From a virus: DNA of 22,256 nucleotides. The translations under genes were made by a program, and so were the position numbers. The notes under the pieces are model-generated. The model was given only the letters and a program-made list of their open reading frames with translations. It was not told the origin of the DNA and searched no databases. The stretch spans positions 1 through 22,256 of IMG/VR virus record IMGVR_UViG_3300022602_000466; one strand, 5' to 3'. Of this stretch, positions 1-20,206 are shown piece after piece; position 1 is the stretch's first letter; every line of letters begins with the position of its first letter.

Positions 1-493
1 AGAAATTCGAATCCCATGATTGCTGGCCCCGAAGCTGGTCCACAAGCTGGCCCGCAAGCTGGCCCGCAAGCTGGTCCCCAAGCTGGCCCCAAAGCTGGTC
101 CCGAAGCTGGCCCCGAAGCTGGCCCCCAAGCTGGTCCCCAAGCTGGTCCCCAAGCTGGCCCCAAAGCTGGTCCCGAAGCTGGTCCCGAAGCTGGTCCCGA
201 AGCTGGTCCTCAAGCTGGTCCCGAAGCTGGCCCGCAAGCTGGCCCGCAAGCTGGCCCCCAAGCTGGCCCTCGTTCATTTTGAAAATACTGACAGCCAGCA
301 TGCACGCGGCGGGACTGTCAAAAATAAAAACCTTAGGGGCCGGCTTCCCGATCACCGCGTAAGCATCGGCCAGCGCTGATGTTAACGCTTCCCGGTTAAT
401 ACGCGACCCGCCGCAAGCCTTGTCTATATATTGCTGACGGAATACCGGCAAATAAGCTTCTTGCTCAGGGGTGAGTTTTTCAATCTTAGCCAT
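1..493 (-). CDS. DUF6745-like protein with xGQL/xDQL tetrapeptide repeats (3' end cut by window edge)
   Basis: Reading the minus strand from ATG at 493 gives an uninterrupted frame that runs off the left edge (about 164 residues visible). The N-terminus contains KLTPEQEAYLPVFRQQYI, then KPAPKVFIFDSP around residues 53-64. From about residue 75 a tetrapeptide array of the form (G/A/R/W/L/E)(G/D)QL repeats about 20 times with a perfect 12-bp DNA period. The order KLTPEQEA, then P.V...SP, then a long four-residue repeat matches my knowledge of DUF6745-type proteins, which are widespread and of unknown function. The opposite-strand Gly-Pro-Gln-Ala frames are shadows of the repeat. The ATG overlaps the stop of the upstream gene (TAATG), so translation is probably coupled. 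The C-terminal domain lies outside the window, so the family call is inference. Confidence 0.75.
   Translation of the reverse strand, partial: MAKIEKLTPEQEAYLPVFRQQYIDKACGGSRINREALTSALADAYAVIGKPAPKVFIFDSPAACMLAVSIFKMNEGQLGGQLAGQLAGQLRDQLEDQLRDQLRDQLRDQLWGQLGDQLGDQLGGQLRGQLRDQLWGQLGDQLAGQLAGQLVDQLRGQQSWDSNF
20..275. repeat. 12-bp tandem repeat array coding for tetrapeptides
   Basis: About 20 tandem copies of a 12-bp unit (plus-strand form AAGCTGGNCCNN) keep strict phase from about 20 to 275. On the minus strand each unit codes for one xGQL or xDQL tetrapeptide. Variation falls at the residue before G/D and at the G/D choice. The CAG CTT codons for Gln-Leu are almost invariant, which suggests recent expansion by slippage or unequal recombination. 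Confidence 0.95.
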
Positions 494-651
494 TACGCAG
501 CCCCTCCAATCACCAGTTCAGAAGGGAACGCAAGAGTCAAGAACAGCCGCGCGCTCTTGGCGTGGCGCGCTGCCTTGCGGCTCAACGCGTGGAACTTGGC
601 CTCTGGGGCGCGTGACTTGTCGCGCAGGGTGCTATGGCGGTTATGTGACAT
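493..651 (-). CDS. small basic protein, unknown function
   Basis: A 52-residue frame begins with MSHNRHSTLRDK and is rich in Arg, Lys, His and Ala through its middle (SRAPEAKFHALSRKAARHAKSA). It ends in a short hydrophobic tail (LFLTLAFPSELVIGGAA). ATG at 651 is chosen because GGAG lies 8 bases upstream; a longer TTG start at 681 would run into the conserved promoter leader. The stop overlaps the ATG of the next gene (TAATG), supporting a real coupled gene. It is the first gene behind promoter cassette 685-725. No family is recognised; the basic composition would fit nucleic-acid binding, but that is a guess. Confidence 0.6.
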   Translation of the reverse strand: MSHNRHSTLRDKSRAPEAKFHALSRKAARHAKSARLFLTLAFPSELVIGGAA

Positions 652-684
652 ATCATGTGCTCCGATTCGTTTTGCTGACAATTA

Positions 685-725
685 GAGATTAAGCGATTCG
701 CGGATAAATGCAAGGGCTAATTGCG
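685..725 (-). promoter_or_regulatory. conserved early promoter cassette, copy F
   Basis: The minus strand shows CGCAATTAGCCCTTGCA (dyad CGCAA/TTGCA), -35 TTGCAT (708-713), a spacer with GCGAATCG and -10-like TAATCT (686-691) at 16 bp spacing. A TTGTCAGCAA leader and CGAATCGGAG follow, leading into the gene starting at 651. This is one of six copies of the cassette in the window. Confidence 0.7.
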
Positions 726-742
726 CTAGGCTTTCACAATGA

Positions 743-1042
743 TTAGGCTGGCTTTGCACAAGCGGTCAGGGCAAGGCGAAGAACACGCATAGCATTTAAG
801 TGACGCTGCGAATGCGGGTATTCAGCCACCTTACGCGCCGCGCTAGGATAGCCGCTCGCTTCCAGAATTTTGGCCAGCAATAGCGCCACCTCGTCCACTG
901 GCGCTTTCTCGTGCTCGGCAACGTGTTTGGCGAGGGCGTCCAATGCGGGGGACGAACCATCGCCGACGTCGCTTGGGTGGTAGTTGTCGCCCGCCAACTC
1001 ACAAGCGCGAACCTTTGCCCAGTGCGGGATCTCATAGGTCAT
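743..1042 (-). CDS. hypothetical phage early protein
   Basis: This 99-residue soluble protein starts MTYEIPHWAKVRACELAG and ends LTACAKPA. It has an acidic, predicted-helical middle (ALAKHVAEHEKAPVDEVALLLAKILEASGY). No family is recognised. ATG at 1042 has the SD-like CGGAG inside the end of the upstream gene, 9 bases before the start, and only 4 bases separate the two genes. It is the last gene of the three-gene operon behind promoter cassette E, and its stop lies just upstream of cassette F. Confidence 0.8.
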   Translation of the reverse strand: MTYEIPHWAKVRACELAGDNYHPSDVGDGSSPALDALAKHVAEHEKAPVDEVALLLAKILEASGYPSAARKVAEYPHSQRHLNAMRVLRLALTACAKPA

Positions 1043-1046
1043 AATG

Positions 1047-1262
1047 CTAACTCCGATACGTTGCCCACAGTTGGGCGAGGATTGCGGCGATGGGGCGGCT
1101 AGGCGCTACTTCCTGCGCGTTGCTCAGATCCTCGCGGAATGTGTCGGCCTTGTCGCCTCTCAGCCGCAGCCCCTCGCGGGTGTGCGCGTGGCGCAAGCCT
1201 ACCCCGTCCGCGTAGTAGTCCACGAGCCAAGGGCCGAACTGCGTGGACAGGAAGGGCTTCAC
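1047..1262 (-). CDS. hypothetical phage early protein
   Basis: This is a 71-residue protein beginning GTG-AAG-CCC (MKPFLSTQFGPWLVDYYADG) with charged segments RLRGDKADTFREDL. The GTG start overlaps the TGA stop of the upstream gene (GTGA), a typical coupled arrangement. The DNA for its last residues carries TATCGGAG, which doubles as the ribosome binding site of the next gene. No domain is recognised. Confidence 0.75.
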   Translation of the reverse strand: MKPFLSTQFGPWLVDYYADGVGLRHAHTREGLRLRGDKADTFREDLSNAQEVAPSRPIAAILAQLWATYRS

Positions 1263-1654
1263 GCCAACACCCCCGCGCTAAGTTTGCGCCCTGCGTCAAT
1301 CGCGGCGCGTGTCAATTCAAGCGGGGCCTTATCGGGCTTCACGTCCGCCGCGTCTGCGATCAGGGCGAACCACTCAGGGCAAGCTTCTTGCCACGCCTTC
1401 GCCCACGCGATCAGGTCCGCGCGCTTCTCACCGATGCAGCGGCCCGCATGAACGCTCGCCACGCTCATGCCGCTGGCAACGTGCGCCACGGTCCAGCCGT
1501 CTGGCTTGCGGGCGCAAAGCGTGTCGCCTTCCCACCAGTGGACAGGACGATGGACGGCTAAGCAGCCTACCACAGTCGCCGGGGTACCAAACATGCCCGA
1601 AACGCGGGGGTAAGCATAGCGCTCGACAAATACTTTAATGGTCTGGCGTGTCAT
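1259..1654 (-). CDS. hypothetical phage early protein
   Basis: This 131-residue protein starts MTRQTIKVFVERYAYPRV. It contains a Trp-rich stretch VHWWEGDTLCARKPDGW, then a helical C-terminal half (ADLIAWAKAWQEACPEW ... APLELTRAAIDAGRKL). No signal peptide, membrane segment or known domain is seen. It is the first gene of the operon behind promoter cassette E; AGGA lies upstream of the ATG. Its stop overlaps the following GTG. Frame openness, promoter position and overlap make it a confident gene of unknown role. Confidence 0.8.
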   Translation of the reverse strand: MTRQTIKVFVERYAYPRVSGMFGTPATVVGCLAVHRPVHWWEGDTLCARKPDGWTVAHVASGMSVASVHAGRCIGEKRADLIAWAKAWQEACPEWFALIADAADVKPDKAPLELTRAAIDAGRKLSAGVLA

Positions 1655-1684
1655 GTTGATTCGATCCTATTTGCTGACAAGTAG

Positions 1685-1725
1685 ACCCTAGCCCGATTCG
1701 CTCAGCTATGCAAGCGGAAATTGCA
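1685..1725 (-). promoter_or_regulatory. conserved early promoter cassette, copy E
   Basis: The minus strand has TGCAATTTCCGCTTGCA (dyad TGCAA-N7-TTGCA), -35 TTGCAT (1708-1713), a 17-bp spacer containing GCGAATCGGG, and -10-like TAGGGT (1685-1690). TTGTCAGCAA follows. The leader then diverges (AGGATCGAATCAAC) before ATG at 1654. Confidence 0.7.
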
Positions 1726-1730
1726 GCTAG

Positions 1731-1823
1731 TTATTTAAACAAATCCTCAAAGCCCCTAGCGGCGTCGCTGCCGAGCCTGAAGCCAAACCCGCGCAGGATC
1801 GCGCGCAAGAGATACATAAGCAT
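1731..1823 (-). CDS. 30-residue small protein, unknown function
   Basis: ATG at 1823 opens a 30-codon frame MLMYLLRAILRGFGFRLG... ending GFEDLFK with TAA at 1731. GAGG lies 7 bases upstream, at the end of the preceding gene. The N-terminal half is hydrophobic and cationic and could form an amphipathic or membrane-associated helix. The start region AACATGCTTATG is a variant of the AAGCATGCTT element found elsewhere in the block. It is the last gene of operon D and sits just upstream of promoter cassette E. Function is unknown. Confidence 0.55.
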   Translation of the reverse strand: MLMYLLRAILRGFGFRLGSDAARGFEDLFK

Positions 1824-1826
1824 GTT

Positions 1827-2186
1827 TTAACCTCGTTGCTCTCGAAAAATGTCTAGTGCTTTTGCAAACATAGCAGGCTGCAAAACCGTTATTTGATGCA
1901 AGAGCAAATCCGCCGCGTCGTCTCCGCGTGAGGATAGAGGAGTCCCTATAGCGGCTATCTTGAAGTCTCGCCCCCACCTCCACACCTTGCGCAAGAATTG
2001 CTCGCTAGACAATCCCGTCATGGGCGACGTATGAAGGCGGGGCAGTTGATCAGCCACCCACCAATCTTCTGCTAGGCACGGCGTGGCCCCGTGCAACTCT
2101 GCATCGCCTAAGAGGGCCGGCAACCTGTCCGCAGTAAAGCGCACTAGCGAGTCTATTAAGGCGTCGTCTATAGATTCTTGCGCCAT
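1827..2186 (-). CDS. hypothetical phage early protein
   Basis: This 119-residue protein begins MAQESIDDALIDSLVRF and includes CLAEDWWVADQLPRLH and EQFLRKVWRWGRDFKIAAIG. It ends in a helical segment MFAKALDIFREQRG. It looks soluble, and no known domain is recognised. The start at 2186 has AGGAG 9-10 bases upstream. The preceding gap is only 26 bases and is filled by the palindrome AAAAGCATGCTTTT. Possible roles cannot be named from sequence. Confidence 0.8.
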   Translation of the reverse strand: MAQESIDDALIDSLVRFTADRLPALLGDAELHGATPCLAEDWWVADQLPRLHTSPMTGLSSEQFLRKVWRWGRDFKIAAIGTPLSSRGDDAADLLLHQITVLQPAMFAKALDIFREQRG

Positions 2187-2200
2187 TGTCTTAATCTCCT

Positions 2201-2214
2201 AAAAGCATGCTTTT
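2201..2214. promoter_or_regulatory. perfect 14-bp palindrome AAAAGCATGCTTTT in 5' leader
   Basis: The palindrome lies between the stop of the 2213-2638 gene and the SD of the 2186 gene. Related copies occur at 2888-2901, 2615-2628 (inside the start of the next gene) and 1818-1829. On the minus strand it contains ATGCTT, opening a 5-codon ORF (MLLGD) that ends 4 bases before the real start codon. Confidence 0.5.
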
Positions 2215-2638
2215 ATCCTTCAGGCAAATAGGCTTCGCCGCTGGCGATACACACGAGCGCCTTGCCTATGTCGGCAACGAGTGTGCGAGTTGAAGCGGCA
2301 AACCCCATGCACTTTTGCCTATGATACGGATTGACAGAGGCGCCGACTACCGCGCCAAACGCAGGGGAGAATCGGCGGTCGCTCTTAAATGTCACGTTCC
2401 ACGGCGTCAGGTAGCTGCCCGATGCATCAATCTTTATCGACACATAAGCCCCATCAGCGGCAATGCGGACGCAAAGCGCCTTAGGGTCGCAAGGGTAAGG
2501 CTCAATTGTGGCGCTTGCTCCTTCACGCTCCGCAAGGTCTTTCAGCATGGCCGCAATGGCTTGCCGATTAGCGGCGCGCTTCGTGCCGGGGTACTCGTGG
2601 CGCTCTACCGGCGTAAGCATGCTTTTATCTTGTGCCAC
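2213..2638 (-). CDS. hypothetical phage early protein
   Basis: This is a 141-residue protein from GTG at 2638 (MAQDKSMLTPVERHEYPGTK). A helical N-terminus (RQAIAAMLKDLAEREG) is followed by a beta-rich middle (CVRIAADGAYVSIKIDASG, LTPWNVTFKSDRR) and a helical end. The GTG is favoured because GGGGGA at the end of the upstream gene gives a suitable ribosome binding site. An internal ATG at codon 7 lies inside an AAGCATGCTT element and is an alternative start. No family is recognised. Confidence 0.75.
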   Translation of the reverse strand: MAQDKSMLTPVERHEYPGTKRAANRQAIAAMLKDLAEREGASATIEPYPCDPKALCVRIAADGAYVSIKIDASGSYLTPWNVTFKSDRRFSPAFGAVVGASVNPYHRQKCMGFAASTRTLVADIGKALVCIASGEAYLPEG

Positions 2639-2642
2639 TATC

Positions 2643-2873
2643 TCAATCCCCCTTGCGTGGCTGGGTGAAGCCGTGCGGGTATCCCGGCCCTTGCGTCGTG
2701 ATCGCGCAAGCCAAGCCGAACGACTGCGCGAAGTCCTCGCGCTCGATACTCTTTGCCACCTTGACCAAAGCCCGCGCCATCAGCCGCGCTTGTGCTGCGG
2801 TGAGGTAGGTTGTCTCACCGCCATTGCCTAGCCATACGGCTGCACAATCCCGGAACCTGTGAATCTGTGCCAT
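2643..2873 (-). CDS. hypothetical phage early protein
   Basis: This 76-residue protein starts MAQIHRFRDCAAVWLGNGGETTYLT and continues with helix AAQARLMARALVKVAKSIERED. The beta-strand start with a following helix reminds me of small phage proteins of unknown function, but I cannot name a family. AGAAGG precedes the ATG at 2873. It is followed 4 bases later by the next GTG, and its last codons supply that gene's SD sequence. Confidence 0.75.
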   Translation of the reverse strand: MAQIHRFRDCAAVWLGNGGETTYLTAAQARLMARALVKVAKSIEREDFAQSFGLACAITTQGPGYPHGFTQPRKGD

Positions 2874-2887
2874 CGTCTTAACCTTCT

Positions 2888-2901
2888 AAAAGCATGCTTT
2901 A
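2888..2901. promoter_or_regulatory. second AAAGCATGCTTT-type palindrome in 5' leader
   Basis: AAAAGCATGCTTTA differs from the 2201-2214 copy only at the last base. Reading leftward it is again placed just before the SD of the next gene (start 2873). It again contains ATGCTTTTA, opening a 5-codon ORF (MLLEG) that ends 4 bases before the start codon. Confidence 0.45.
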
Positions 2902-2909
2902 GCCACGCA

Positions 2910-3263
2910 TTACACTGCTTGAAAAACAGTGAATCCAGCTTCGCGCAACTGGCGCTCCCATGTGAATCCGCCATCCTGAATAAGCGCTTGGTAAAAGTCC
3001 AATTCAGAGTCAGAAGTCGCCGCCTGGATCGCGGTTTCCTTGATCGCGTTAGCGCAAGCCGCGCTCCGCTTGTCATAGCCGTAACCGCTTGCTTGTCCGC
3101 GCACCATCTCAGTGCCGAACCAATGAACATAGGCGTACAAGCGGCCAGCGCCATCGGCAGGAAACTTAAAGGCGATAGTGGCGACACGCTCCGCGCCTTG
3201 CATTACAACAAACGCCGAAACGCGGTTAAAAGCTGCGGCGTGCTGATCATAAACCTTGGTCAT
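2910..3263 (-). CDS. conserved small phage protein with SGYGYDK motif
   Basis: This 117-residue protein begins MTKVYDQHAAAFNRVSAFVV. It has a beta-rich first half (FVVMQGAERVATIAFKFPADGAGRLYAYVHWFG) followed by RGQASGYGYDKRSAACANAI. It ends in a helical, aromatic C-terminus (LDFYQALIQDGGFTWERQLREAGF). The strand-rich half followed by GYGYDK and a helix is a pattern I know from many small uncharacterised phage proteins. It is the first gene of the operon behind cassette D, and GGAG sits at the usual distance before ATG. Function is unknown. Confidence 0.8.
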   Translation of the reverse strand: MTKVYDQHAAAFNRVSAFVVMQGAERVATIAFKFPADGAGRLYAYVHWFGTEMVRGQASGYGYDKRSAACANAIKETAIQAATSDSELDFYQALIQDGGFTWERQLREAGFTVFQAV

Positions 3264-3295
3264 TGTCTTTACTCCGATTCGTTGCTGACAAGGGA

Positions 3296-3336
3296 TTAGT
3301 AACCCGATTCGCTTGACCTTGCAAGCACTAATTGCA
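3296..3336 (-). promoter_or_regulatory. conserved early promoter cassette, copy D
   Basis: The minus strand has TGCAATTAGTGCTTGCA dyad (3320-3336), -35 TTGCAA (3319-3324), a 17-bp spacer with GCGAATCGGG and -10-like TACTAA (3296-3301). The leader TTGTCAGCAA then CGAATCGGAG leads into ATG at 3263. Confidence 0.75.
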
Positions 3337-3338
3337 GT

Positions 3339-3587
3339 TTAATCTGTAACAGGTGGCCAAGCGCCTGAACCTAGGCGACTGTAAAGGGCTTTGCGCAACG
3401 AAACTTCACTTGTGCCCATACGCGCCGCCGCCTCTGCGATACTTAGCCCCTCGTCCCGGCAAGCCAAGATTGCACGGAAACGAATTTCCGCCTTAACGCT
3501 AATGGAAGCGTAATGTTTCGCGTAGTAGGGGTGTTTCATTTTGAGGCGTTCTCGCCTATACTTCGCCTTGTAGGTTTCCAGATTCAT
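3339..3587 (-). CDS. small helix-turn-helix DNA-binding protein
   Basis: This 82-residue protein has a basic N-terminus (YKAKYRRERLKMKHP). At about residues 44-68 it has a helix-turn-helix typical of transposase/resolvase-like or sigma-region-4-like folds (DEGLSIAEAAARMGTSEVSLRKAL). The ATG at 3587 has a strong AAGGAGG 8 bases upstream. It is the last gene of operon C, directly before the operator-like dyad of cassette D. It is the only clear helix-turn-helix protein in the leftward block, so it is a candidate regulator of the repeated dyads. That role is inference. Confidence 0.75.
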   Translation of the reverse strand: MNLETYKAKYRRERLKMKHPYYAKHYASISVKAEIRFRAILACRDEGLSIAEAAARMGTSEVSLRKALYSRLGSGAWPPVTD

Positions 3588-3599
3588 CGCCCTGCCTCC

Positions 3600-3797
3600 T
3601 TATCCCATTGCCTTCAGCTTCATAAAGCCGGCATTATAGCCCGCGCTCCAAGCCTCTAGGCAATCCGCGCGGCGGTATGGGTTAGGCTTGTGCTCCTGCC
3701 CATCAGCGGCTTGCAAGCCGGCCTTGACGCCTAGCCTGTAGGCGCGCGTGGTGGACGGATAGGCAAGCCAATGATTGATCACTGGCGGGCTAGTCAT
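3600..3797 (-). CDS. ribosome modulation factor (RMF/CrpP)-like small protein
   Basis: This 65-residue protein carries AYRLGVKAGLQAADG (residues 19-33) and PNPYRRADCLEAWSAGYNAG (38-57). The pattern A...G..AG...PY........W..G(Y/W)..A is the one seen in the RMF/CrpP family. In that family, RMF dimerises ribosomes in stationary phase and CrpP-like proteins occur on mobile elements. Length is near that of the family (about 55-70). Its ATG overlaps the TGA of the upstream gene (ATGA). A phage version might act on host ribosomes, but this is inference. The family match is judged by eye. Confidence 0.55.
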   Translation of the reverse strand: MTSPPVINHWLAYPSTTRAYRLGVKAGLQAADGQEHKPNPYRRADCLEAWSAGYNAGFMKLKAMG

Positions 3798-3997
3798 GCC
3801 GCCGCGCTCCGCATTGCACGCGCCTTGCGCGTTGCCTCAGAATAACCCGCTTCCATCATTGACAGGGCGGGGCGATAGTTAGGCGCCGTTCGGTCAATCC
3901 CTTGCATATCATAGAAGTAACGATTCGCGGCGGCTTGCCAGTCCCGCGCAGTCCAATCCGCACGATTGCCGCTAGGGAAAGGGAAGGGGTGAGTCAT
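3794..3997 (-). CDS. hypothetical small phage protein
   Basis: This is a 67-residue protein starting MTHPFPFPSGNRADWTARDW. A helical region follows (AAANRYFYDMQGIDRTAPNYRPALSMMEAGYSEATRKARAM). ATG at 3997 is chosen over a longer upstream start because GAGGAAG lies 8-9 bases before it and it overlaps the stop of the small gene upstream (ATGA). It also overlaps the next gene by ATGA, so it sits in a translationally coupled chain. No family is recognised. Confidence 0.7.
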   Translation of the reverse strand: MTHPFPFPSGNRADWTARDWQAAANRYFYDMQGIDRTAPNYRPALSMMEAGYSEATRKARAMRSAAA

Positions 3998-4125
3998 TGT
4001 GGCGCTTCCTCTTGAACGCGGCACGCTGCATCGGCGCCGCAAAGTGAATCCGTTTGGCCGGCGATTGTCACTAGCAGGCCAGCGACTAGCGCCAGTGCCG
4101 CTAGGGCGATGACTAGGCGAGTCAT
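3994..4125 (-). CDS. 43-residue membrane or exported small protein
   Basis: ATG at 4125 opens a 43-codon frame. It begins MTRLVIALAALALVAGLLV, a single hydrophobic segment (residues 4-22) behind one Arg. A short polar tail with two Cys (CGADAAC) follows, ending in EEAPQ. Both ends overlap neighbours by ATGA, which strongly supports translation even though the gene is below usual length limits. It could be a single-pass inner membrane protein or a cleaved secreted peptide. There is no lipobox Cys at the expected place. Function is unknown. Confidence 0.65.
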   Translation of the reverse strand: MTRLVIALAALALVAGLLVTIAGQTDSLCGADAACRVQEEAPQ

Positions 4126-4535
4126 GCCTTCGCATACCTAGCAGAGTATACGCCCGCCGGGGCGCGATTCAGCGCCTCTCGGCAATCGCGCGCCCACGTC
4201 GTGCTAGCGAGATATGTGCCTCTTGCGCCGTATAGGTCAATCTTGCGATAGTCGCGCTTGTCACCATAGGAATAGGGCAAAACATTGCGTTTTAGAAAGC
4301 GCTGCGCCGCGCTATAGCTTGACCAGAATCTAATATCGCCCGCTGTATTATGCAGCCAACCGTAATCGCAGCCAACAATAGCATACTTGACGCACATCGG
4401 ATTGACCGAGGCCGATTCGCTATCATCAGCGAAAGTCAAAAACTGCGAGTCTTGGCGCAAGAGGCATGCGACTACGCGCGGGCTTCCTTCGCGGGCGTTG
4501 ATAGTAGCGCGGCTTGTGTGAACCTTGATTGCCAT
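4122..4535 (-). CDS. hypothetical phage early protein
   Basis: This 137-residue protein starts MAIKVHTSRATINAREGSP. It contains YAIVGCDYGWLHNTAGDIRFWSSYSAAQRFLKR (about residues 51-83), a motif-rich stretch with Trp and Tyr, and ends with an aromatic, basic tail. It appears soluble; no named domain is recognised. It is the first gene of operon C, with CGGAG 9 bases before the ATG inside the conserved leader. Its stop overlaps the ATG of the next small membrane gene. Confidence 0.8.
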   Translation of the reverse strand: MAIKVHTSRATINAREGSPRVVACLLRQDSQFLTFADDSESASVNPMCVKYAIVGCDYGWLHNTAGDIRFWSSYSAAQRFLKRNVLPYSYGDKRDYRKIDLYGARGTYLASTTWARDCREALNRAPAGVYSARYAKA

Positions 4536-4567
4536 TTTCTTAACTCCGATTCGTTGCTGACAAATAG

Positions 4568-4608
4568 ATCTTAGCCCGATTCGCTTATCCTTGCAAGCGG
4601 TAATTGCG
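4568..4608 (-). promoter_or_regulatory. conserved early promoter cassette, copy C
   Basis: The minus strand has CGCAATTACCGCTTGCA (4592-4608), -35 TTGCAA (4591-4596), a 17-bp spacer with GCGAATCGGG and -10 TAAGAT (4568-4573), the best -10 of the set. The leader TTGTCAGCAACGAATCGGAG follows. Confidence 0.8.
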
Positions 4609-4610
4609 GA

Positions 4611-4802
4611 TTATTCCGGCACGTAATCGTGCCACATAATCTGAAGAGCACATTGCCCCGAATATCCGCAATTGCCCACGAGGGAGTCAAAACGCGAGTC
4701 CACCTCGTTTGCATCGTCGCCCGGCTGAAAATAGACGTCCTGCCCAGTTTCCATATTCGCAAGCGTTATGCCGCCTGTCCAGTCATGCGCCATTGTGATC
4801 AT
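4611..4802 (-). CDS. hypothetical small acidic protein
   Basis: This protein has 63 residues (or 60 if the internal ATG at codon 4, position 4793, is used). The sequence is MAHDWTGGITLANMETGQDVYFQPGDDANEVDSRFDSL followed by GNCGYSGQCALQIMWHDYVPE. It is acidic, with two Cys near the end. GAGAG lies 8 bases before the first ATG; the second ATG has the ACAATG context common in this block. It is the last gene of operon B, ending just before promoter cassette C. No family is recognised. Confidence 0.7.
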   Translation of the reverse strand: MITMAHDWTGGITLANMETGQDVYFQPGDDANEVDSRFDSLVGNCGYSGQCALQIMWHDYVPE

Positions 4803-4815
4803 GATTCCGACTCTC

Positions 4816-4920
4816 TTAAATCGCTATGCCTGAATCGCGCGCAACCTTTACAGCGTTAGCACGTATGGCCGACGCAGGGCGGTTGACGGCTTGTTTTCGC
4901 TCTTGCTGTGTGAATGTCAC
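4816..4920 (-). CDS. 34-residue small basic protein
   Basis: GTG at 4920 overlaps the TGA stop of the upstream gene (GTGA). It opens a 34-codon frame MTFTQQERKQAVNRPASA ... VKVARDSGIAI ending TAA. It fills what would otherwise be an unexplained gap between two genes of operon B, has no hydrophobic segment and is basic. It is supported by the overlap and spacing only. Confidence 0.5.
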   Translation of the reverse strand: MTFTQQERKQAVNRPASAIRANAVKVARDSGIAI

Positions 4921-5279
4921 AAGCTGGACTCCGTTTTATAGATTGCATCAAGCTCAGCACGCATTGCTTGCGTGTGCTTTGGGCTTATCCGCTGGCAAAT
5001 TTCCAGTTGCACGGGGGCGCCGTAAATATCGGGCCGGGCGGATGGAGAGTCGGTGTAAATGCCTGTCAATTCGCGCAATAGGCTTGCGAATTCATCGGGC
5101 CGGGCCGGGCGCGTTCCCCGATACCAATCGAATGACGCGTTCCCATGTTGCCCAACATGAGCGTAGCAAGTCATATAGCGGCCATTGCAATCGGCGGGGA
5201 TAGTTGGTAAAATTGCAGTAATATCCCCCTTAAATTGCCCTGATTTATTGGCGCGAAAGATTACGGGAAGTTTTTGCAT
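4917..5279 (-). CDS. conserved small phage protein
   Basis: This 120-residue protein starts MQKLPVIFRANKSGQFKGDITAILP. It then has CYAHVGQHGNASFDWYRGTRPARPDEFASLLRELTGIY. The run from the DITAILP strand to CYAHVGQHG, then a TRPA....F..LL.EL..IY helix, is a layout I have seen in uncharacterised proteins of many phages. The start at 5279 follows GAAGGATAGAGACA; the longer frame upstream would run through promoter cassette B and is rejected. It is the first gene of operon B, ending in a GTGA overlap. Role unknown. Confidence 0.8.
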   Translation of the reverse strand: MQKLPVIFRANKSGQFKGDITAILPTIPADCNGRYMTCYAHVGQHGNASFDWYRGTRPARPDEFASLLRELTGIYTDSPSARPDIYGAPVQLEICQRISPKHTQAMRAELDAIYKTESSL

Positions 5280-5320
5280 TGTCTCTATCCTTCTAAGTGA
5301 TTCGCTTATCTTGTGCCCCA

Positions 5321-5361
5321 TTATTAGGGCCGATTCGCCACCAATGCAAGCGCTAATTGCA
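5321..5361 (-). promoter_or_regulatory. conserved early promoter cassette, copy B
   Basis: The minus strand has TGCAATTAGCGCTTGCA (5345-5361), -35 TTGCAT (5344-5349), a 17-bp spacer with GCGAATCGG and -10 TAATAA (5321-5326). The dyad includes the last codons and TAG stop of the upstream gene. The leader lacks TTGTCAGCAA but has GCGAATCAC before the AAGGA site. The dyad is identical to copy A at 7151-7167. Confidence 0.75.
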
Positions 5362-5793
5362 TATCCCTGCGAATATCTCGCTTGCATCATAAACCGCGCT
5401 TTCCTCGGTGATACGCGCCACCATCGCCAGCGTTATCCTAGGGGCAAGAGGTTGCAGCTTGATCCGCTCGCGGTACTTGCGCCGCGCCGCCTTGCCTCTT
5501 GCGTCGCGTACCGCCTCAGGCGAACCCCATGACAGGTGCATAGGATTCATGCAGCGGCGATTGCAGCACGTTGCCAGCACTTGCCCGCCAATAGGGGCCG
5601 GCCCATTGATCAATTCGCACAATAGCAGTTGTGCGCTCTTGCTCGTGCCATTGGCGCTTAGCACTGGTCGGCCCGGAAAGGGCCATATATCGCAATCCTC
5701 ATAGGTTAGGCTCATGAGCCTAGAATCGTCGCTTAACCATTTATAAGCCGCACTTTTGCGAAGGGGGGTCGGTATCTCGATGCTATTAGACAT
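5353..5793 (-). CDS. degenerate HNH-type zinc-binding protein
   Basis: This 146-residue protein from ATG at 5793 has AAAGGA upstream. The middle reads LLLCELINGPAPIGGQVLATCCNRRCMNPMHLSWG (about residues 57-90), the layout of phage HNH proteins (C.N..C.NP.HL..G). However, the His normally found just before the first Cys pair is Ala-Thr here (QVLATCC). A basic linker and a possible helix-turn-helix (RITLAMVARITEE) follow. Family knowledge suggests a homing-type nuclease; the missing His suggests loss of cleavage and retained DNA binding. It is the first gene left of the divergent region. Longer upstream starts lack a ribosome binding site. Confidence 0.7.
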   Translation of the reverse strand: MSNSIEIPTPLRKSAAYKWLSDDSRLMSLTYEDCDIWPFPGRPVLSANGTSKSAQLLLCELINGPAPIGGQVLATCCNRRCMNPMHLSWGSPEAVRDARGKAARRKYRERIKLQPLAPRITLAMVARITEESAVYDASEIFAGICN

Positions 5794-5970
5794 AATTATC
5801 CTTTCAAGGTGTTTATTAGCCTGCATTATAGAGCGGGGATAATGGGGTATAATAGAGCCTTTATAAATCACCATCCTTTGGTAGGTGTATAGCCCGGTTA
5901 ATTACAAGGGGTGTTAGGCACGTTTCGGCATATTAGCTATTAGACATTTTAGGCCTAATAATTAACCGTT

Positions 5971-5986
5971 CTATCCATTAGGATAG
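5971..5986. promoter_or_regulatory. perfect 6-bp inverted repeat CTATCC-ATTA-GGATAG
   Basis: A perfect stem with 4-base loop lies in the divergent region. No T-run follows on either strand, so an operator or structured RNA is more likely than a terminator. Confidence 0.35.
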
Positions 5987-6161
5987 CTAGGCATATTGCG
6001 CTTTTGCGTTTTTTATGTCAAGCGGTGTTTTATTGCGTTGTTTCAAGAGGTTATGAGCGTTTTGGAGCTTAGGCTCTAATGTCCCGTTTTATGGTGAGTG
6101 TATAACAGAGTAATTTAACTAATTAACGCAAGTGCCAAGCGGGGGGTGAGTTTAGGGGGAT

Positions 6162-6175
6162 TATCATATATGATA
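6162..6175. promoter_or_regulatory. 14-bp palindrome TATCATATATGATA, operator candidate
   Basis: A perfect palindrome lies about 20 bases upstream of the rightward -35 box at 6194, followed by an extra TGATA half-site. This is the position of an activator or repressor site for the 6255 gene. It is not seen elsewhere in the window. Confidence 0.45.
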
Positions 6176-6193
6176 TGATACCCCAAACGCCCC

Positions 6194-6221
6194 TTGCTTG
6201 TGGCGGGATTTATGGTAAGGT
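6194..6221 (+). promoter_or_regulatory. rightward promoter candidate (TTGCTT-16-TAAGGT)
   Basis: TTGCTT at 6194-6199 and TAAGGT at 6216-6221 are 16 bp apart. The boxes resemble cassette A at 7163-7191 (TTGCAT, TAAGGT). The leader contains CGAATCGGAG, as in the leftward operons, which serves as the ribosome binding site of the gene at 6255. Confidence 0.5.
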
Positions 6222-6254
6222 GAAGGCGGATAAAACGAATCGGAGATTAGAGAT

Positions 6255-6635
6255 ATGACCTCGTATAAGATTGCACCGATCACTTTCGCACAAGTCAGTA
6301 AGGGCGAATGTTTTGAGTGTGGCGGCAATCTGTACCGCAAGCGCTCAAGCCGCACGGCTGAGATTGTCGCCACGCGCCAATGCAACGGCTTGGCAAGCGT
6401 TCATCGCCGCTATGCCGGCGTTTGGGGCTATTTCAGCAATCCCGACAGGGTGAACCATAATCTAAGCGACTTCCAGCCCTGTGTACGTCGCTTTGCGGCA
6501 AGCGGCAAAGCCATACACCGCAAGATTAACCTCAATGCGGTTAACTTCGCAGTCAAAAAACTAGAACAAGCGCTTAGCTACACGCCACTAAGTGAAGCGC
6601 TTAGCTACACGCCACTAAGTGAAGCGCTTAGCTAA
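6255..6635 (+). CDS. conserved small phage protein with duplicated C-terminus
   Basis: This 126-residue protein starts MTSYKIAPITFAQVSKGECFECGGNLYRKRSSRTAEIVA. The N-terminal pattern (KGE.F...GN.Y.KRS.RTAE) is common in small uncharacterised phage proteins. Two Cys in CFEC are followed by further single Cys. The C-terminus is built of two and a half copies of ALSYTPLSE, from a 27-bp DNA repeat. CGGAG lies 9 bases before the ATG. It overlaps the next gene by TAATG. Function unknown. Confidence 0.8.
   Translation: MTSYKIAPITFAQVSKGECFECGGNLYRKRSSRTAEIVATRQCNGLASVHRRYAGVWGYFSNPDRVNHNLSDFQPCVRRFAASGKAIHRKINLNAVNFAVKKLEQALSYTPLSEALSYTPLSEALS
6569..6634. repeat. 27-bp direct repeat, 2.4 copies, at gene end
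   Basis: Two perfect 27-bp units (6569-6595, 6596-6622) and a 12-base partial third (6623-6634) are present. Each unit codes for nine residues. Units contain inverted arms (CTTAG/CTAAG, GCGCTT/AAGCGC), so slippage through a hairpin could have made the duplication. The third copy ends in the TAA stop overlapping the next ATG. Confidence 0.95.
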
Positions 6636-7150
6636 TGCTCGACTCACAATGGCCGCTAAGCCATGCGCTCAAAGTTTGGCACGCATTGCACAAGCCCGCC
6701 CAGCCCGGCGATTCCTTCGTATCGCCTAGCGGCCAGCTATTCGTCGTGCATGCCCGCGCCTATTACCGCTTCACTGGGCGCAAGAATCCAATAGTTGCAT
6801 TGGACTGGCAAAGCCATTGCGCCTTGTGCGGTGAGCCCTACGTGTTTCGCAAGTATCTATTTGCGCGCAGCATGATCCGCACCTGCCCCGCGCATAGGGG
6901 CGCTATGCCGCCAGCGCCGCGCCCTAAGCGCGATAAGCCGGCGCGCGCACCCTATGTGCCGCCCGCGCCGTTCCGTGACTTCATAGTGGCTGAGCTAGAG
7001 GCACTGGCGCAAGCCGGTGCAACTATGCCGCGCGATGAATTGGAAGAATACCTGATCGACAGGATAGAGCGCGGCGAGGGGCGTGACGCCCGTTGCCAGA
7101 ATGTTAGGCGCGTATTGGCGCAACTAGAGGCGCAAGGCTTAGTTGCATGA
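6635..7150 (+). CDS. hypothetical zinc-ribbon-like phage protein
   Basis: This 171-residue protein starts MLDSQWPLSHALKVWHALHKPAQPGDSF. Residues 60-86 read SHCALCGEPYVFRKYLFARSMIRTCP, with CxxC plus a later C..H that may bind zinc. A Pro/Lys/Arg linker follows. The C-terminal domain (FRDFIVAELEALAQAGATMPRDELEEYLIDRIERG ... NVRRVLAQLEAQGLVA) resembles a winged helix of primase- or replication-related proteins, but this is weak. The start is coupled by TAATG. The stop directly abuts the dyad of cassette A. A DNA-binding role is possible. Confidence 0.75.
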   Translation: MLDSQWPLSHALKVWHALHKPAQPGDSFVSPSGQLFVVHARAYYRFTGRKNPIVALDWQSHCALCGEPYVFRKYLFARSMIRTCPAHRGAMPPAPRPKRDKPARAPYVPPAPFRDFIVAELEALAQAGATMPRDELEEYLIDRIERGEGRDARCQNVRRVLAQLEAQGLVA

Positions 7151-7191
7151 TGCAATTAGCGCTTGCATTGCTAGCTGGCCAGCGTTAAGGT
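7151..7191 (+). promoter_or_regulatory. conserved promoter cassette, copy A (rightward)
   Basis: TGCAATTAGCGCTTGCA at 7151-7167 is identical to copy B on the other strand. The -35 TTGCAT (7163-7168), 17-bp spacer and -10 TAAGGT (7186-7191) follow. The GCGAATCG spacer box is absent here, and the leader has GATTCGAT before the start codon. It drives the small gene at 7224. Confidence 0.7.
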
Positions 7192-7223
7192 GGCGCTAGT
7201 TAAACAGGATAAGGTGATTCGAT

Positions 7224-7400
7224 ATGGGCGACTCGGTTGGTATCTCAGTCTCAGACATAGACCCTCTCTTTGGCGAAGGCGTGATTGATTGCACCGCGTT
7301 TAAAGTATGGTACGCGGATTATATGGCAGAATACGCCGTTCCTTACGATTTAACCGTAGGACACGTTAGGCGCTACCTAGAAGAAACAAGCGACGCATAG
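7224..7400 (+). CDS. 58-residue small acidic protein
   Basis: ATG at 7224 opens a 58-codon frame, MGDSVGISVSDIDPLFGEG ... CTAFKVWYADYMAEY ... LTVGHVRRYLEETSDA. AAGGTG lies 7 bases before the start, and promoter cassette A precedes it with nothing else between. It ends just before a GC-rich hairpin. It is a clear standalone transcription unit of unknown function and below usual gene-calling length. Confidence 0.75.
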   Translation: MGDSVGISVSDIDPLFGEGVIDCTAFKVWYADYMAEYAVPYDLTVGHVRRYLEETSDA

Positions 7401-7408
7401 CCTTAACC

Positions 7409-7433
7409 GGCGCGGCCCTAAGCAAGCCGCGCC
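7409..7433 (+). terminator. GC-rich hairpin after 7224 gene
   Basis: GGCGCGGC (7409-7416) pairs with GCCGCGCC (7426-7433) around a 9-base loop. No T-run follows, so it is a weak intrinsic terminator or an end-protecting hairpin. It closes the early rightward unit. Confidence 0.45.
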
Positions 7434-7655
7434 CCTCTCCACTGCTAATAGCGGGATTGCTTTTTACCATGAACCGCGAGGCCCCCCGCCTCCCGCTTCT
7501 GAGAGAAAATGATGAGGTAGGGTGTTACTCTGCCCCGATCCCACATACGCACAAAACCCAAAAAATTTCCGGCAAAATTTTACAAAACTATAAACGCAAC
7601 CGCCACTTGCAATTCCGTCACAGGATTTCCCATTTCGGCTTTGCCCATAAAATTT

Positions 7656-7689: not shown

Positions 7690-8268
7690 ATGCGACACGC
7701 CTTATCCCTCATCGCCCTTCTACCCTCAGCCGCACTGGCACAGCAGATCACGGCAGACCGTCCCGGTATCGGCGTCGACCCTGAAGTTGTGCCGCAATGG
7801 ACCTTGCAGCCCGAGATGGGAACCGACAGCAAGGAGATCCGGCTAGGCGTGCTGCCTCACCTCGAACTAGACCGCGACGACACAAGCTGGGGCGCCAAGG
7901 TCGCGCTCACCGACGCTAGGCTAAAGACCTCGCTGAAGCTGTCTTACGACAACGCTCTACACCCCATAGCCGAAGTGCCGGCCAACTACACCTTCAGCGA
8001 TAGGTTCAACCTCGGCTTGGATGCGTCATGGGCCAAGAGCCAGCAGACCTACGCCGCCGAGTTTAACTACACACCCACCAACCGCTTGACGATCACGCCA
8101 ACGCTCTACCACGACGGCAAGACGCGCGCTGCGCTATTCGCCGCGTGGATAGTACCGCGCCACAACAACGCGCAGTTCGACCTCGGATACGACAAGCACA
8201 AGGTCAGCGTCGGGATCAGCACCGCGCTGAACTTCAAAGATGTGTTGCACCCGCATATAAAGAGTTGA
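7690..8268 (+). CDS. outer-membrane beta-barrel-like protein (MetA/transporter type)
   Basis: This 192-residue protein has a clear signal peptide, MRHALSLIALLPSAALAQ with an AxA-type cleavage site near residues 16-18. The mature part starts ITADRPGIGVDPEVVPQWTLQPEMGTD and continues with alternating strands (SWGAKVALTDARLKTSLKLSYDN, FNLGLDASWAKSQQTYAAEFNYTPTNRLTITPTLYHDGK). The DRP...VP...LQ.E opening resembles the MetA-pathway-of-phenol-degradation family of outer membrane proteins, although this one is short. No SD is seen upstream. It stands apart from phage morphogenesis genes and may be a host-derived lysogenic or superinfection gene. The role is inference. Confidence 0.65.
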   Translation: MRHALSLIALLPSAALAQQITADRPGIGVDPEVVPQWTLQPEMGTDSKEIRLGVLPHLELDRDDTSWGAKVALTDARLKTSLKLSYDNALHPIAEVPANYTFSDRFNLGLDASWAKSQQTYAAEFNYTPTNRLTITPTLYHDGKTRAALFAAWIVPRHNNAQFDLGYDKHKVSVGISTALNFKDVLHPHIKS

Positions 8269-8300: not shown

Positions 8301-8858
8301 ATGAGCAAACGAGCAAACATAGCACCGCACACATTGCAAAAATTGCTGGAGTACAACCCAGAAACCGGAAAACTGATGTGGAAGCCACGTGCGCGCGAAT
8401 GGTTCCAAAGTGACATGCTGTGCCGTGCTTGGAACACGCGCTGCGCGGGAAAAGAAGCGTTTAATACCAGAGGTGCCAATGGCTATTTGTGCGGAGGCGT
8501 ACTCGGCCAGATGAGATACGCGCATCGGGTAGCTTGGGCTGTCCGTCACGGTGAGTGGCCTCTAAAGGAAATAGACCACATCAACCACATACGCACGGAC
8601 AACAGACTCGTGAATTTGAGAGAAGTAGACCACGCAACGAATCACAAAAACCGGGGAGTTCGCTCTGACAATAGCAGCGGAGTAACCGGGGTGACGTGGC
8701 GAGAGGATTGCAAAAAATGGGTAGCCCGAATAAAGGACGGTCCAGAGCATCGTGTCGTAGGATATTTTGAGACACTGAACGAGGCGGCTGAAGCGCGTAA
8801 AATGGCAGATAAGCTATGTGGGTTCCATGCGAACCACGGGGTTGTAGAAACAGCATAA
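8301..8858 (+). CDS. HNH endonuclease with AP2 DNA-binding domain
   Basis: This 185-residue protein from ATG at 8301 has AGGA 9 bases upstream. The N-terminal domain LLEYNPETGKLMWKPR leads into the HNH motif: RYAHRVAWA (His75), then EIDHINHIRTDNRLVNLREV (Asp92-His93, Asn101, Asn105). Residues 125-180 form an AP2-type domain (SSGVTGVTWREDCKKW ... GYFETLNEAAEARKMAD). The family consists of freestanding or intron-borne homing endonucleases that nick DNA at specific sites. All catalytic residues look intact. Its TAA overlaps the ATG of the terminase small subunit. A longer upstream frame overlapping the membrane protein gene is not used. Confidence 0.9.
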   Translation: MSKRANIAPHTLQKLLEYNPETGKLMWKPRAREWFQSDMLCRAWNTRCAGKEAFNTRGANGYLCGGVLGQMRYAHRVAWAVRHGEWPLKEIDHINHIRTDNRLVNLREVDHATNHKNRGVRSDNSSGVTGVTWREDCKKWVARIKDGPEHRVVGYFETLNEAAEARKMADKLCGFHANHGVVETA

Positions 8859-11621: not shown

Positions 11622-13913
11622 ATGGCCAGCCAACCGCCTGTCACTGACGACGAGCCTATCATCATTGACGCGGCGGATGAAGGTGCTGACAAGCCCGAGT
11701 TTGCGGACAACGGCGACGTGCTGCGCATCGAGCACCCAGATGGCAGCATCACGATCTCGTTGGATGGCGCGCTGGAGAAGGCAGAAGGCTCTGGTGCGAA
11801 AGATTGGTTCGACAATCTGGTAGACGACATCGACCCGATGGAACTCAGCAGTATCGCGGACACCTTGCTGCGCGGCGTGGATGATGACCTCACCTCGCGC
11901 CAAGAGTGGATCGAGAACCGAGCGCAAGGTATGCGGCTGCTGGGCCTCAAGATCGAGATGCCCGGAACGATGGGCGGCGCAGACGGCGCACCCGTGGAGG
12001 GTATGTCCAAGGTACGCCACCCGCTGCTGCTGGAAGCCGTGCTGCGGTTCCAAGCCAACGCGCGCGGCGAGATGCTGCCGACCGATGGGCCGGTGAAGAT
12101 CCGCAATGACGACAACAACGCGACCTACAAAGAGGATAATATCGCGAACGCGCTAGAGCGCGATCTTAACCACTATCTGACCTCGACGGCGACGGAATAC
12201 TACCCCGACACCGACCGCATGTTCTTGCTGTTGGGCTTCGGCGGAACGGCGTTCAAGAAGATCTACTTCTGCCCGCTGCGCAACCGGCCCGTGTCCGAGT
12301 CCGTGGATGCGGATGACCTGATTGTGAACAACGATGCGACTGACTTGGCTAACGCCAAGCGCATCACTCACCGGATTATGATGCGCCCCTCAGTGGTGAA
12401 GCGCATGCAGATCCTTGGCGCCTACCACGACGTAGACCTCGGTACGCCGCAGCAGCGCCGCGCCGACGCGCTGCTCAACGAGAAGCGCGACCAAGAGGGT
12501 ATCGCGGCTACGACCACTAACCCACTGGACCGTGACCGCGAGATTTACGAAGTCTACTGCGAACTTGATGTTAAAGGCTTCGAGCATAAGCACAAGGGCA
12601 AGCCCTCTGGGCTGGAGGTGCCTTACCGCGTCACTATCGACGTGTCGTCCAAGCAAGTGCTGTCTATCGTCCGTAATTACGACGAGAAAACGGAAAGCCT
12701 GCCGGTAGCCAAGCGCGCCTTCGTGAAGTACACATTCGTCCCCGGCTTCGGCTTCTACGACATCGGGTTGTTGCACATCCTTGGCAACACCACCAACGCG
12801 CTGACAGCCGCGTGGCGCGAGATGCTGGACAACGGGATGTTTGCCAACTTCCCCGGCTTCCTCATGGCCGACACAGGCGGACGCCAGAACTCTAACATCT
12901 TCCGCGTGCCTCCGGGCGGCGGCGCCACGGTCAAGACCAACGGACTGAATATCCAGCAAGCAGTGATGCCGCTGCCCTACAACACCAGCGGCATGCCAGC
13001 GCTCATGGCACTGACACAAGATATGGCGCAAACCGGCATGCGCGTGGGCGGTACGTCCGAGGCACAAGTTGGCGAAGGGCGCGCAGACGCGCCAGTTGGC
13101 ACGACTCTTGCAATGATTGACCAAGCGACTAAGATGCTGAACTCGGTCCACAAGCGCATGCACTCTTCGCAGGCGGATGAGTTCCGACTGCTGTGCGAGT
13201 GCTTCGAGGCGCACCCCGAGGCGTTCTGGGAGCGGAACTACCAGCCCACTATCGAGTGGGACGAGGAGACGTTCCTGAGCGCGCTGAAGAACTATGACCT
13301 TTGCCCTCAGGCCGATCCGAACACTGCTTCTCATGGGCAGCGTGTGATGAAGATCGTGGCGCTGATGCAGTTGGCTGCGCAGAACCCAACGCTGTACGAC
13401 CCGTTGGCAATTAACACCGCTGCGTTGCAGACGATTGGCTGGAGCAACCCTGCGCAGTTCTTCACGCCGCCGACCGCACAAGCTGCGCCCCCGCCACAAC
13501 TGGAAGCCATGCTGGCCAAGACGCAGAACGAGACGACTGCGGCGCAAGCCAAAAAAACCATTGCTGATGCCAAGCTGGCCGAGGTGCAAGCCAAAGCCGC
13601 AGAAGCACAAGCCAAGTTGCAGATGGAGGCCAGCAAGCCCGCAGAAGGCGGTGGGGGTGTTGACCCGAGTGCTGGGCAAGCAGCGCTGCTGTCCGCGCAG
13701 GCGAACATGATGAACGCACAGACCAAACGCGCTGATCTCCAGATCAAGGCGCAAGGCCAGCACGCGGAAGATCAGAACCGCGATCAGGACCGGGCGAGCA
13801 AGGAGCAGATTGCCTTGCTGGATCTGGCCAAGTCGGTTATGGGCAACGCGCACGATGAGAAGTTAGCACTGAAACTGGCGAAGCCGGCTGAGAAATCACA
13901 AGGAGTAGATTGA
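11622..13913 (+). CDS. portal protein
   Basis: This 763-residue protein is large, in the range of P22-type portals. Helical and strand segments include MSKVRHPLLLEAVLRFQANA (about 126-145) and DTDRMFLLLGFGGTAFKKIYF (196-216). Next come a wing/stem-like middle VKYTFVPGFGFYDIGLLHILG and a glycine-rich GGTSEAQVGEGRADAPVGTTLAMID. The last about 140 residues are an Ala/Gln/Lys-rich coiled coil (ETTAAQAKKTIADAKLAEVQ). It forms the dodecameric vertex ring through which TerL packages DNA. It sits right after TerL as expected. AAGGA lies 8 bases before ATG. A long opposite-strand frame is a GC-driven shadow. Confidence 0.85.
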   Translation: MASQPPVTDDEPIIIDAADEGADKPEFADNGDVLRIEHPDGSITISLDGALEKAEGSGAKDWFDNLVDDIDPMELSSIADTLLRGVDDDLTSRQEWIENRAQGMRLLGLKIEMPGTMGGADGAPVEGMSKVRHPLLLEAVLRFQANARGEMLPTDGPVKIRNDDNNATYKEDNIANALERDLNHYLTSTATEYYPDTDRMFLLLGFGGTAFKKIYFCPLRNRPVSESVDADDLIVNNDATDLANAKRITHRIMMRPSVVKRMQILGAYHDVDLGTPQQRRADALLNEKRDQEGIAATTTNPLDRDREIYEVYCELDVKGFEHKHKGKPSGLEVPYRVTIDVSSKQVLSIVRNYDEKTESLPVAKRAFVKYTFVPGFGFYDIGLLHILGNTTNALTAAWREMLDNGMFANFPGFLMADTGGRQNSNIFRVPPGGGATVKTNGLNIQQAVMPLPYNTSGMPALMALTQDMAQTGMRVGGTSEAQVGEGRADAPVGTTLAMIDQATKMLNSVHKRMHSSQADEFRLLCECFEAHPEAFWERNYQPTIEWDEETFLSALKNYDLCPQADPNTASHGQRVMKIVALMQLAAQNPTLYDPLAINTAALQTIGWSNPAQFFTPPTAQAAPPPQLEAMLAKTQNETTAAQAKKTIADAKLAEVQAKAAEAQAKLQMEASKPAEGGGGVDPSAGQAALLSAQANMMNAQTKRADLQIKAQGQHAEDQNRDQDRASKEQIALLDLAKSVMGNAHDEKLALKLAKPAEKSQGVD

Positions 13914-19366: not shown

Positions 19367-19468
19367 CGATTTTTTACTTAATCCGAAAGAAAACCTCAAA
19401 TGGGCGCTTTACAACCGAACGCTAATGTTATACACCTTGCTCTGCCAATTAGGGCAAAGGAGAATGAC

Positions 19469-20206
19469 ATGGCTAAGGAAGCAAAGCACTCATTTGAGGA
19501 TCTCACCCGCGTACTGGCGTACAACGCTGATACCGGAGAGATTACGTGGAAAGTGTCGCTTACGTCGCGGTCGCAAGCAGGTGGCCGCGCAGGCGTGTGG
19601 CAACGGATGCAAAACGGCAAAGACTATCTTGGGGTCACGTATCAAGGCGTGAAAATCTCCGGCGCTAGGCTAGCTTGGCTACTGCATCACGGGGAATGGC
19701 CGGATCGGTCGGTGTTCTACATTGATGGGGACAGCACTAATCTTCGGGCTTCTAACCTGAAACTGGCGGACCACAAGTCCGACAAGCACATAGGCGAGGA
19801 CGGGAAAACGCGGTATCGCATGTCGTCGGAGCAGGTTCGCCATTACGGTCTTAAGCGCAACTACGGCATTTCGTACACCGAATATGCCGAGATGTTTGCG
19901 GCCCAAAACGGGGTTTGCGACATTTGTAAAAACGCTGAGACTGCGATGATTCCGGGGCGAAAAGGTGCTGAGGAGCGGACAGGCACGCGCGATTTGTCGG
20001 TTGACCACAACCACGAAACGGGTGCTATCCGAGGTCTGCTCTGCAACGCCTGCAACCACGTTCTAGGCGAGGCCAAAGACAGCGCTGCTATCCTACGCGC
20101 CGCTGCTGATTATCTCGACAAGCATTCGGCACACCAGCCTAATGTAATTTCGCTTGACCCTAAAGAGGGTTCTGTGGTTAATGCTAACTCGGCCACGGGC
20201 CGCTAA
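19469..20206 (+). CDS. endonuclease VII-type homing nuclease with HNH-like N-terminus
   Basis: This 245-residue protein from ATG at 19469 has AAAGGAG 6 bases upstream. Residues 149-200 carry the recombination endonuclease VII signature: CDIC (Cys150, Cys153), SVDHNHETGAIRGLLCNACNHVLG (Asp179, His180, Asn181, His182; Cys192, Cys195). Residues 14-100 resemble the N-terminal half of the HNH-AP2 protein at 8301 (YN.(D/E)TG.(I/L).WK ... HGEWP). However, its HNH site reads FYIDGDSTNLRASNLKL, lacking the Asp-His pair, so this half is probably inactive. Such genes are homing-type invaders inserted between essential genes; here it lies after an intact capsid gene. Confidence 0.85.
   Translation: MAKEAKHSFEDLTRVLAYNADTGEITWKVSLTSRSQAGGRAGVWQRMQNGKDYLGVTYQGVKISGARLAWLLHHGEWPDRSVFYIDGDSTNLRASNLKLADHKSDKHIGEDGKTRYRMSSEQVRHYGLKRNYGISYTEYAEMFAAQNGVCDICKNAETAMIPGRKGAEERTGTRDLSVDHNHETGAIRGLLCNACNHVLGEAKDSAAILRAAADYLDKHSAHQPNVISLDPKEGSVVNANSATGR

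Follow-up and report, generated by a model that had tools for sequence, protein, structure and literature searches.

The window analysed here is the whole of a 22,256-nucleotide stretch of viral DNA (IMG/VR record IMGVR_UViG_3300022602_000466), in the left part of which small genes are preceded by six copies of a promoter cassette built on a TGCAA-N7-TTGCA dyad (Table 1). The genes behind the cassettes are probably early, judging by their small size and their position, and for most of them no relatives were found. A sequence-only reading had placed five leftward dyads and one rightward dyad in this region, and all six are present at those coordinates and on those strands. A loose form of the dyad, allowing two mismatches, is at chance level in the window (19 against 13.6 expected), while the stricter form common to all copies, GCAATT-N4-CTTGCA, has exactly six matches in the window and never appears in 300 dinucleotide shuffles; including its degenerate first base, the shared form is YGCAATT-N4-CTTGCA. 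The copies at 5345 and 7151, which lie on opposite strands 1.8 kb apart, are identical across the dyad and in fact over 20 nt, and in the two mismatched dyads (709 and 4592) the variation falls in the half-site distal to the -35 box.

The promoter geometry proposed for the repeat also holds, as TTGCA[A/T] is followed by TAnnnn in all six copies at a spacing of 17 nt, or 16 nt in copy 709, two of the -10 hexamers (TACTAA and TAATAA) lacking the final T at the 17-nt spacing. A consensus scan of the window for promoters and terminators did not rise above shuffles. The full repeat is longer than the 17-bp dyad, extending over 54-84 nt from the dyad through to the start codon; in copy 4592 the transcribed strand reads CGCAATTACCGC-TTGCAA-GGATAAGCGAATCGGGC-TAAGAT-CTATTTGTCAGCAACGAATCGGAGTTAAGAAAATG. 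Every copy stands between two of the small early-type genes; each had been said to adjoin the stop codon of the gene before it, and five do, lying less than 20 nt from it or overlapping it (7151 immediately after the stop, 3320 and 4592 at 2 nt, 709 at 17 nt, 5345 overlapping), but copy 1709 is about 100 nt beyond the nearest plausible stop. A coordinated set of early promoters derived from one cassette is well supported by this six-copy repeat. The phage-wide regulon that had been suggested is not supported, since the cassettes are confined to the left 7.2 kb of the 22 kb fragment.

Table 1. Positions in the window of the repeated cassettes, their elements and two of the genes behind them.
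Feature	Position	Strand	Dyad	-35	Spacer GANTC	-10	Leader or second GANTC	Start codon	Remarks
Cassette 1	650..725	-	709-725	TTGCAT 708-713	695-699 (GCGAATCG)	TAATCT 686-691	664-668		
Cassette 2	1652..1725	-	1709-1725	TTGCAT 1708-1713	1695-1699	TAGGGT 1685-1690	1658-1662	1654	
Cassette 3	3261..3336	-	3320-3336	TTGCAA 3319-3324	3306-3310	TACTAA 3296-3301	3276-3280	3263	
Cassette 4	4533..4608	-	4592-4608	TTGCAA 4591-4596	4578-4582	TAAGAT 4568-4573	4548-4552	4535	
Cassette 5	5277..5361	-	5345-5361	TTGCAT 5344-5349	5332-5336	TAATAA 5321-5326	5299-5303	5279	
Cassette 6	7151..7226	+	7151-7167	TTGCAT 7163-7168	none	TAAGGT 7186-7191	7216-7220	7224	rightward
Half cassette	6194..6257	+	none	TTGCTT 6194-6199	none	TAAGGT 6216-6221	6237-6241	6255	16 nt between the hexamers; leader ACGAATCGGAG
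Early gene behind cassette 3	2910..3263	-							117 aa; orthologues in Rhizobium phage RHph_X2_30 and at least 44 viral loci
Small helix-turn-helix (HTH) protein gene	3339..3587	-							82 aa; in operon behind cassette 4; generic HTH by sequence and fold, no GcrA match

Fixed GANTC sites within the cassettes

The most constrained part of the repeat, overlooked by the sequence-only reading, is a GANTC site in the promoter spacer, GANTC being the target of CcrM, the alphaproteobacterial cell-cycle methylase. All five leftward copies carry it within the sequence GCGAATCG, 9-10 nt past the dyad and 3-5 nt ahead of the -10. The eight columns of GCGAATCG are invariant in the five copies, whereas each of the seven spacer columns before them varies (Fisher p 1.6e-4), which argues that the octamer is constrained beyond what simple duplication would produce. 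The combination CTTGCA-N4-9-GANTC occurs five times in the window against 0.3 expected. A second GANTC lies 3-19 nt ahead of the start codon in all six cassettes, separated from the spacer site of the leftward copies by 30, 30, 31, 33 and 37 nt, and it is retained though the ribosome-binding site switches from one side of it to the other (1709 and 7151 versus 3320 and 4592). The rightward promoters, at 7151 and at the dyad-less 6194-6221, have GANTC in the leader only.

These sites also share their flanks. The form YGAKTCG fits all 12 of the cassette and leader GANTC sites against 10 of the 61 others in the window (hypergeometric p 3.5e-8, for copies that are themselves related), and this form is given, in a passage of PMC7987155 that cites Haakonsen 2015, as the extended motif of promoters activated by GcrA when methylated.

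In the window at large, GANTC is 2.5-fold above shuffles in positions 1-7450 (44 against 17.5 expected, a count reached by none of 300 shuffles) and below expectation beyond 7450 (29 against 50). Synonymous shuffling removes most of both biases within genes (27 against 20 in the left part, 24 against 27.7 in the rest), and the surplus remaining in the left part lies mostly outside genes. Avoidance of GANTC in the structural genes was dropped as evidence because codon and amino-acid use largely explains the deficit. Among the NNnNN palindromes, GANTC is avoided more than any other in most of the relatives tested, which fits, but does not prove, that their hosts have a GANTC methylase; it has been cautioned that biases of this kind can arise from other causes (Gonzalez 2014, PMC3973325). 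The closest annotated relative, MW202675.1 (L088-L089), has 2 GANTC in 61 kb against 275 expected, a stronger avoidance than in any other phage tested.

Host and phage regulators as possible readers of the cassettes

GcrA is a sigma70 cofactor that brings polymerase to methylated promoters (PMC7403470), GANTC-to-GCNTC mutations lower GcrA-dependent promoters by 60-80% (PMC3667746), and the Caulobacter start sites in which GANTC falls between -10 and -35 constitute a distinct temporal class (PMC4287350). This placement is seen in five of the six cassettes, the exception being copy 7151. The best reading of the cassettes, for which we see an about even chance, is that they are duplicated sigma70 promoter-and-leader units coupled to the host CcrM-GcrA switch; their membership of the GcrA-dependent class, judged from sequence, is still unproven. 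Host sigma70 RNA polymerase would transcribe the small early-type operons from these units, most likely helped in promoter opening by sigma70-bound GcrA recognising the methylated spacer GANTC, so that early phage transcription would track the CcrM/GcrA state of the host. The leader GANTC might offer a further methylation-sensitive contact just downstream of the transcription start, and the leftward operons, with both sites, would then differ in dependence from the rightward ones, with the leader site alone. The dyad across the -35 could serve as an extra operator for some host or phage regulator. Taken together these features suggest that the phage couples its early genes to the host methylation switch.

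A more speculative extension, which we consider rather doubtful, is that methylation of the phage DNA acts as a clock, the early promoters being on when the entering genome is CcrM-methylated and host GcrA is present, and fading as replication outruns methylation, with early expression gated to a phase of the host cell cycle. If true, this would be a phage regulon resting on a host epigenetic switch.

The spacer site recurs in a second phage. A scan of viral contigs for TTGCA-N6-8-GCGAATCGG-NN-TA returned single matches in 34 contigs, many of them chance matches in coding DNA; those in L201, L203, L206/L226, L207/L218 and L222 are promoter-like and directly ahead of a start codon, but carry little weight because the scan itself selected the motif. 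In contig L203 at least seven promoters have YGAKTCG as a spacer site, against a shuffle mean of 0.06, and six of these were not imposed by the search pattern. They have the spacer site without the dyad; the contig also contains, near 12225, CTTGCAATGCCCAACGAATCGGGCTATAC, which is nearly the core of the window cassettes minus the upstream dyad half, and leaders that read CGAATCAGGAG. The proteins of L203 show no detectable similarity to those of the window, and its small terminase is similar to that of Vibrio phage VCPH and to those of other large phages (110-130 kb). That two unrelated phages have the spacer site, but not the dyad, in common favours a host factor over a phage-specific one. 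L203 also carries two convergent promoter pairs (4400-4510 and 5129-5226) with YGAKTCG in each spacer and, between them, palindromes such as GGGTGATTCGCGAATCACCC with two more GANTC.

An alphaproteobacterial host is suggested by the relatives of the window phage. Those recognised by capsid and portal infect Caulobacter, Roseobacter and Pelagibacter among others, and capsids 73-74% identical are found in Rhizobium isolate genomes, which encode GcrA (E ~1e-60) and, in each of the three examined for it, a RAMA domain of the CcrM type. The closest annotated relative of gene 2910-3263 belongs to a Sinorhizobium phage for which a GcrA-like protein is also recorded.

Several observations weigh against coupling to CcrM and GcrA. 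The spacer GANTC is missing from copy 7151 and from the half cassette at 6194, and as the cassettes are copies of one another their GANTC sites cannot be counted as separate events. In 2.1 Mb of viral loci other than the window and L203 the arrangement shows no enrichment (4.6 per 1000 motif occurrences, in the middle of the range for 16 palindromes). It is also absent from the nearest relatives of the window phage, and consensus promoters with a spacer GANTC are not in excess on Rhizobium chromosomes. No GcrA turned up in the 22 kb fragment or among 32 relatives, and the host class and the methylation are themselves deduced and unproven. As a general rule of related phages a spacer GANTC was rejected, being present in 2 of 28 strict promoters where 1 is expected, and the arrangement is a trait of particular phages rather than a general grammar. 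In one related phage, at 2950-3000 of L052 (record G021), the promoter of an IS1595-like transposase gene, TTGACT-ACACAGGCCGATTCGCC-TATATT, has YGAKTCG in its spacer; as it belongs to a transposase-like gene it was not counted as a feature of the phage family.

The main rival, a possibility we rate clearly below coupling to the host switch, is that a phage-encoded repressor or activator controls the set, with the dyad, the two CGAWTCG sites 30-37 nt apart, or both as operators, and that the match to the GcrA/CcrM motif is coincidental. All six copies retain the dyad, which overlaps the -35, CGAWTCG is a small palindrome, GANTC appears twice per leftward cassette at the spacings given above, and many phages use repeated operators near the -35. 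The 12 sites nevertheless all fit the narrower YGAKTCG, the recurrence of the spacer site without the dyad in L203, to which no relationship can be detected, speaks for a host factor, and the sole regulator-like protein in the early region examined is the generic HTH protein. This protein, which the sequence-only reading had put forward for a test of binding to the dyad, was considered as a candidate GcrA and rejected, having no PF07750 match, a low-confidence model and only generic HTH neighbours.

The operator overlapping the -35 that the sequence-only reading proposed is plausible in that the dyad is conserved throughout and its variable half-site is the upstream one. No consensus matching the dyad was found for a Mur, Fur or NtrX box, and a CtrA site was rejected, as TTAA-N7-TTAA with one mismatch occurs twice in the window against 3.9 expected and the half-sites of the dyad are TGCAA and TTGCA. 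Loss of the dyad in relatives that keep the genes had been named as a result that would refute the proposed regulon, and this is in part what is seen: no dyad stands ahead of the orthologues of gene 2910-3263 in 44 viral loci and in RHph_X2_30, and the dyad is therefore not conserved with that gene. A search of other viral contigs for the exact cassette gave only one match, in coding sequence of an unrelated low-GC phage (L087), and a search of viral contigs for the leader gave none.

Next in rank, and unlikely in our estimate, are plain cassettes under no special control, strong promoters with ribosome-binding sites that were spread by duplication and whose conserved letters serve sigma70 and the ribosome only. 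The 70-85% identity across 54-84 nt, ending in a GGAG-type ribosome-binding site, agrees with this, as does the leader that occurs without a dyad at 6237, and repeated gene-start cassettes have a precedent in the Start-Associated Sequences (SAS) of Cluster K mycobacteriophages (PMC3203893). Such cassettes would not account for GCGAATCG being invariant where sigma70 needs no fixed sequence and adjacent bases vary, nor for a leader GANTC that persists while the ribosome-binding site changes side. That the dyad is a host operator, for example of a MarR/OhrR-type repressor, is very improbable: TGCAATTTGATTTTGCA, in the TGCAA-N7-TTGCA frame, adjoins an OhrR-like gene in two Rhizobium genomes (L127 1501-1517 and L136 1501-1517; in L127 the site is flanked on its other side by an ohr-like gene), but the dyad is about as frequent as a reversed control in whole Rhizobium genomes and the seven inner bases of the Rhizobium site differ from those of the phage.

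Other features of the window were noted. A palindrome family, TAAAAGCATGCTTTTA, has three copies (2200-2215, 2612-2627 and 2887-2902; 0.06 expected) at three gene junctions without a promoter cassette. The left contig end (10-300) holds a 12-bp tandem array of GCTGGCCCCAAA type with about 17 registered copies, an open frame encoding repeated AGPQ/AGPE, and a 27-nt unit stands in two perfect tandem copies at 6568-6621, inside open reading frame (ORF) 6255-6635. Three HNH-type endonuclease-like genes are present in the 22 kb, among the leftward early genes (5353-5793), just upstream of the terminase genes (8307-8858) and adjoining the major capsid gene (19463-20206). ORF 7690-8268 (192 aa), upstream of the terminase block, has a signal-peptide-like start, appears outer-membrane-like by eye and was not found in relatives.

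Relation to known promoter systems

Chromosomal examples of the promoter class to which the cassettes may belong are already known, and CtrA provides a known case of a host cell-cycle regulator acting on phage promoters. In the literature searched, mostly non-subscription, no account of phage promoters based on the CcrM/GcrA site came to light, and a study of alphaproteobacterial phages that looked for GcrA sites saw no asymmetry or pattern (PMC9437464). The CtrA-controlled phage promoters of that study resemble the suggested system in placing phage genes under a host cell-cycle regulator, but TTAA-N7-TTAA is absent from the window cassettes. Cluster K SAS and extended SAS (ESAS) likewise are repeated gene-start cassettes serving many small genes, in which an inverted repeat precedes a sequence close to the start (PMC3203893). 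Their sequences and hosts are different: GGGATAGGAGCCC, which lies just ahead of starts in the SAS definition (PMC3203893), is replaced in the window leaders by CGAATCGGAG or unrelated sequence, and ESAS are conserved with genes across the cluster, whereas the window dyad does not accompany gene 2910-3263 in its 44 orthologue loci.

The cassettes also resemble the GcrA/CcrM promoters of Caulobacter and other alphaproteobacteria (ctrA P1, mipZ, podJ P2), which also have GANTC in or near a sigma70-type core promoter. The phage site is set between -35 and -10 in the YGAKTCG form, and here it is phage-borne, multi-copy and duplicated, accompanied by a -35 dyad and a leader GANTC. Phages of the phiCbK type and Rhizobium phage RHph_X2_30 are phages engaging the GcrA switch that have an annotated GcrA-like protein, whereas in the window phage only DNA sites are seen. 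The cassettes offer a compact natural promoter set for direct tests of methylation-dependent initiation. It is known that phages of alphaproteobacteria sense the host cell cycle by way of CtrA, and GcrA homologues occur in some of them; if the coupling suggested here is true, phages also exploit the epigenetic arm of the cell cycle, through a repeated cassette with the GcrA/CcrM site fixed in the core promoter, in two unrelated phages.

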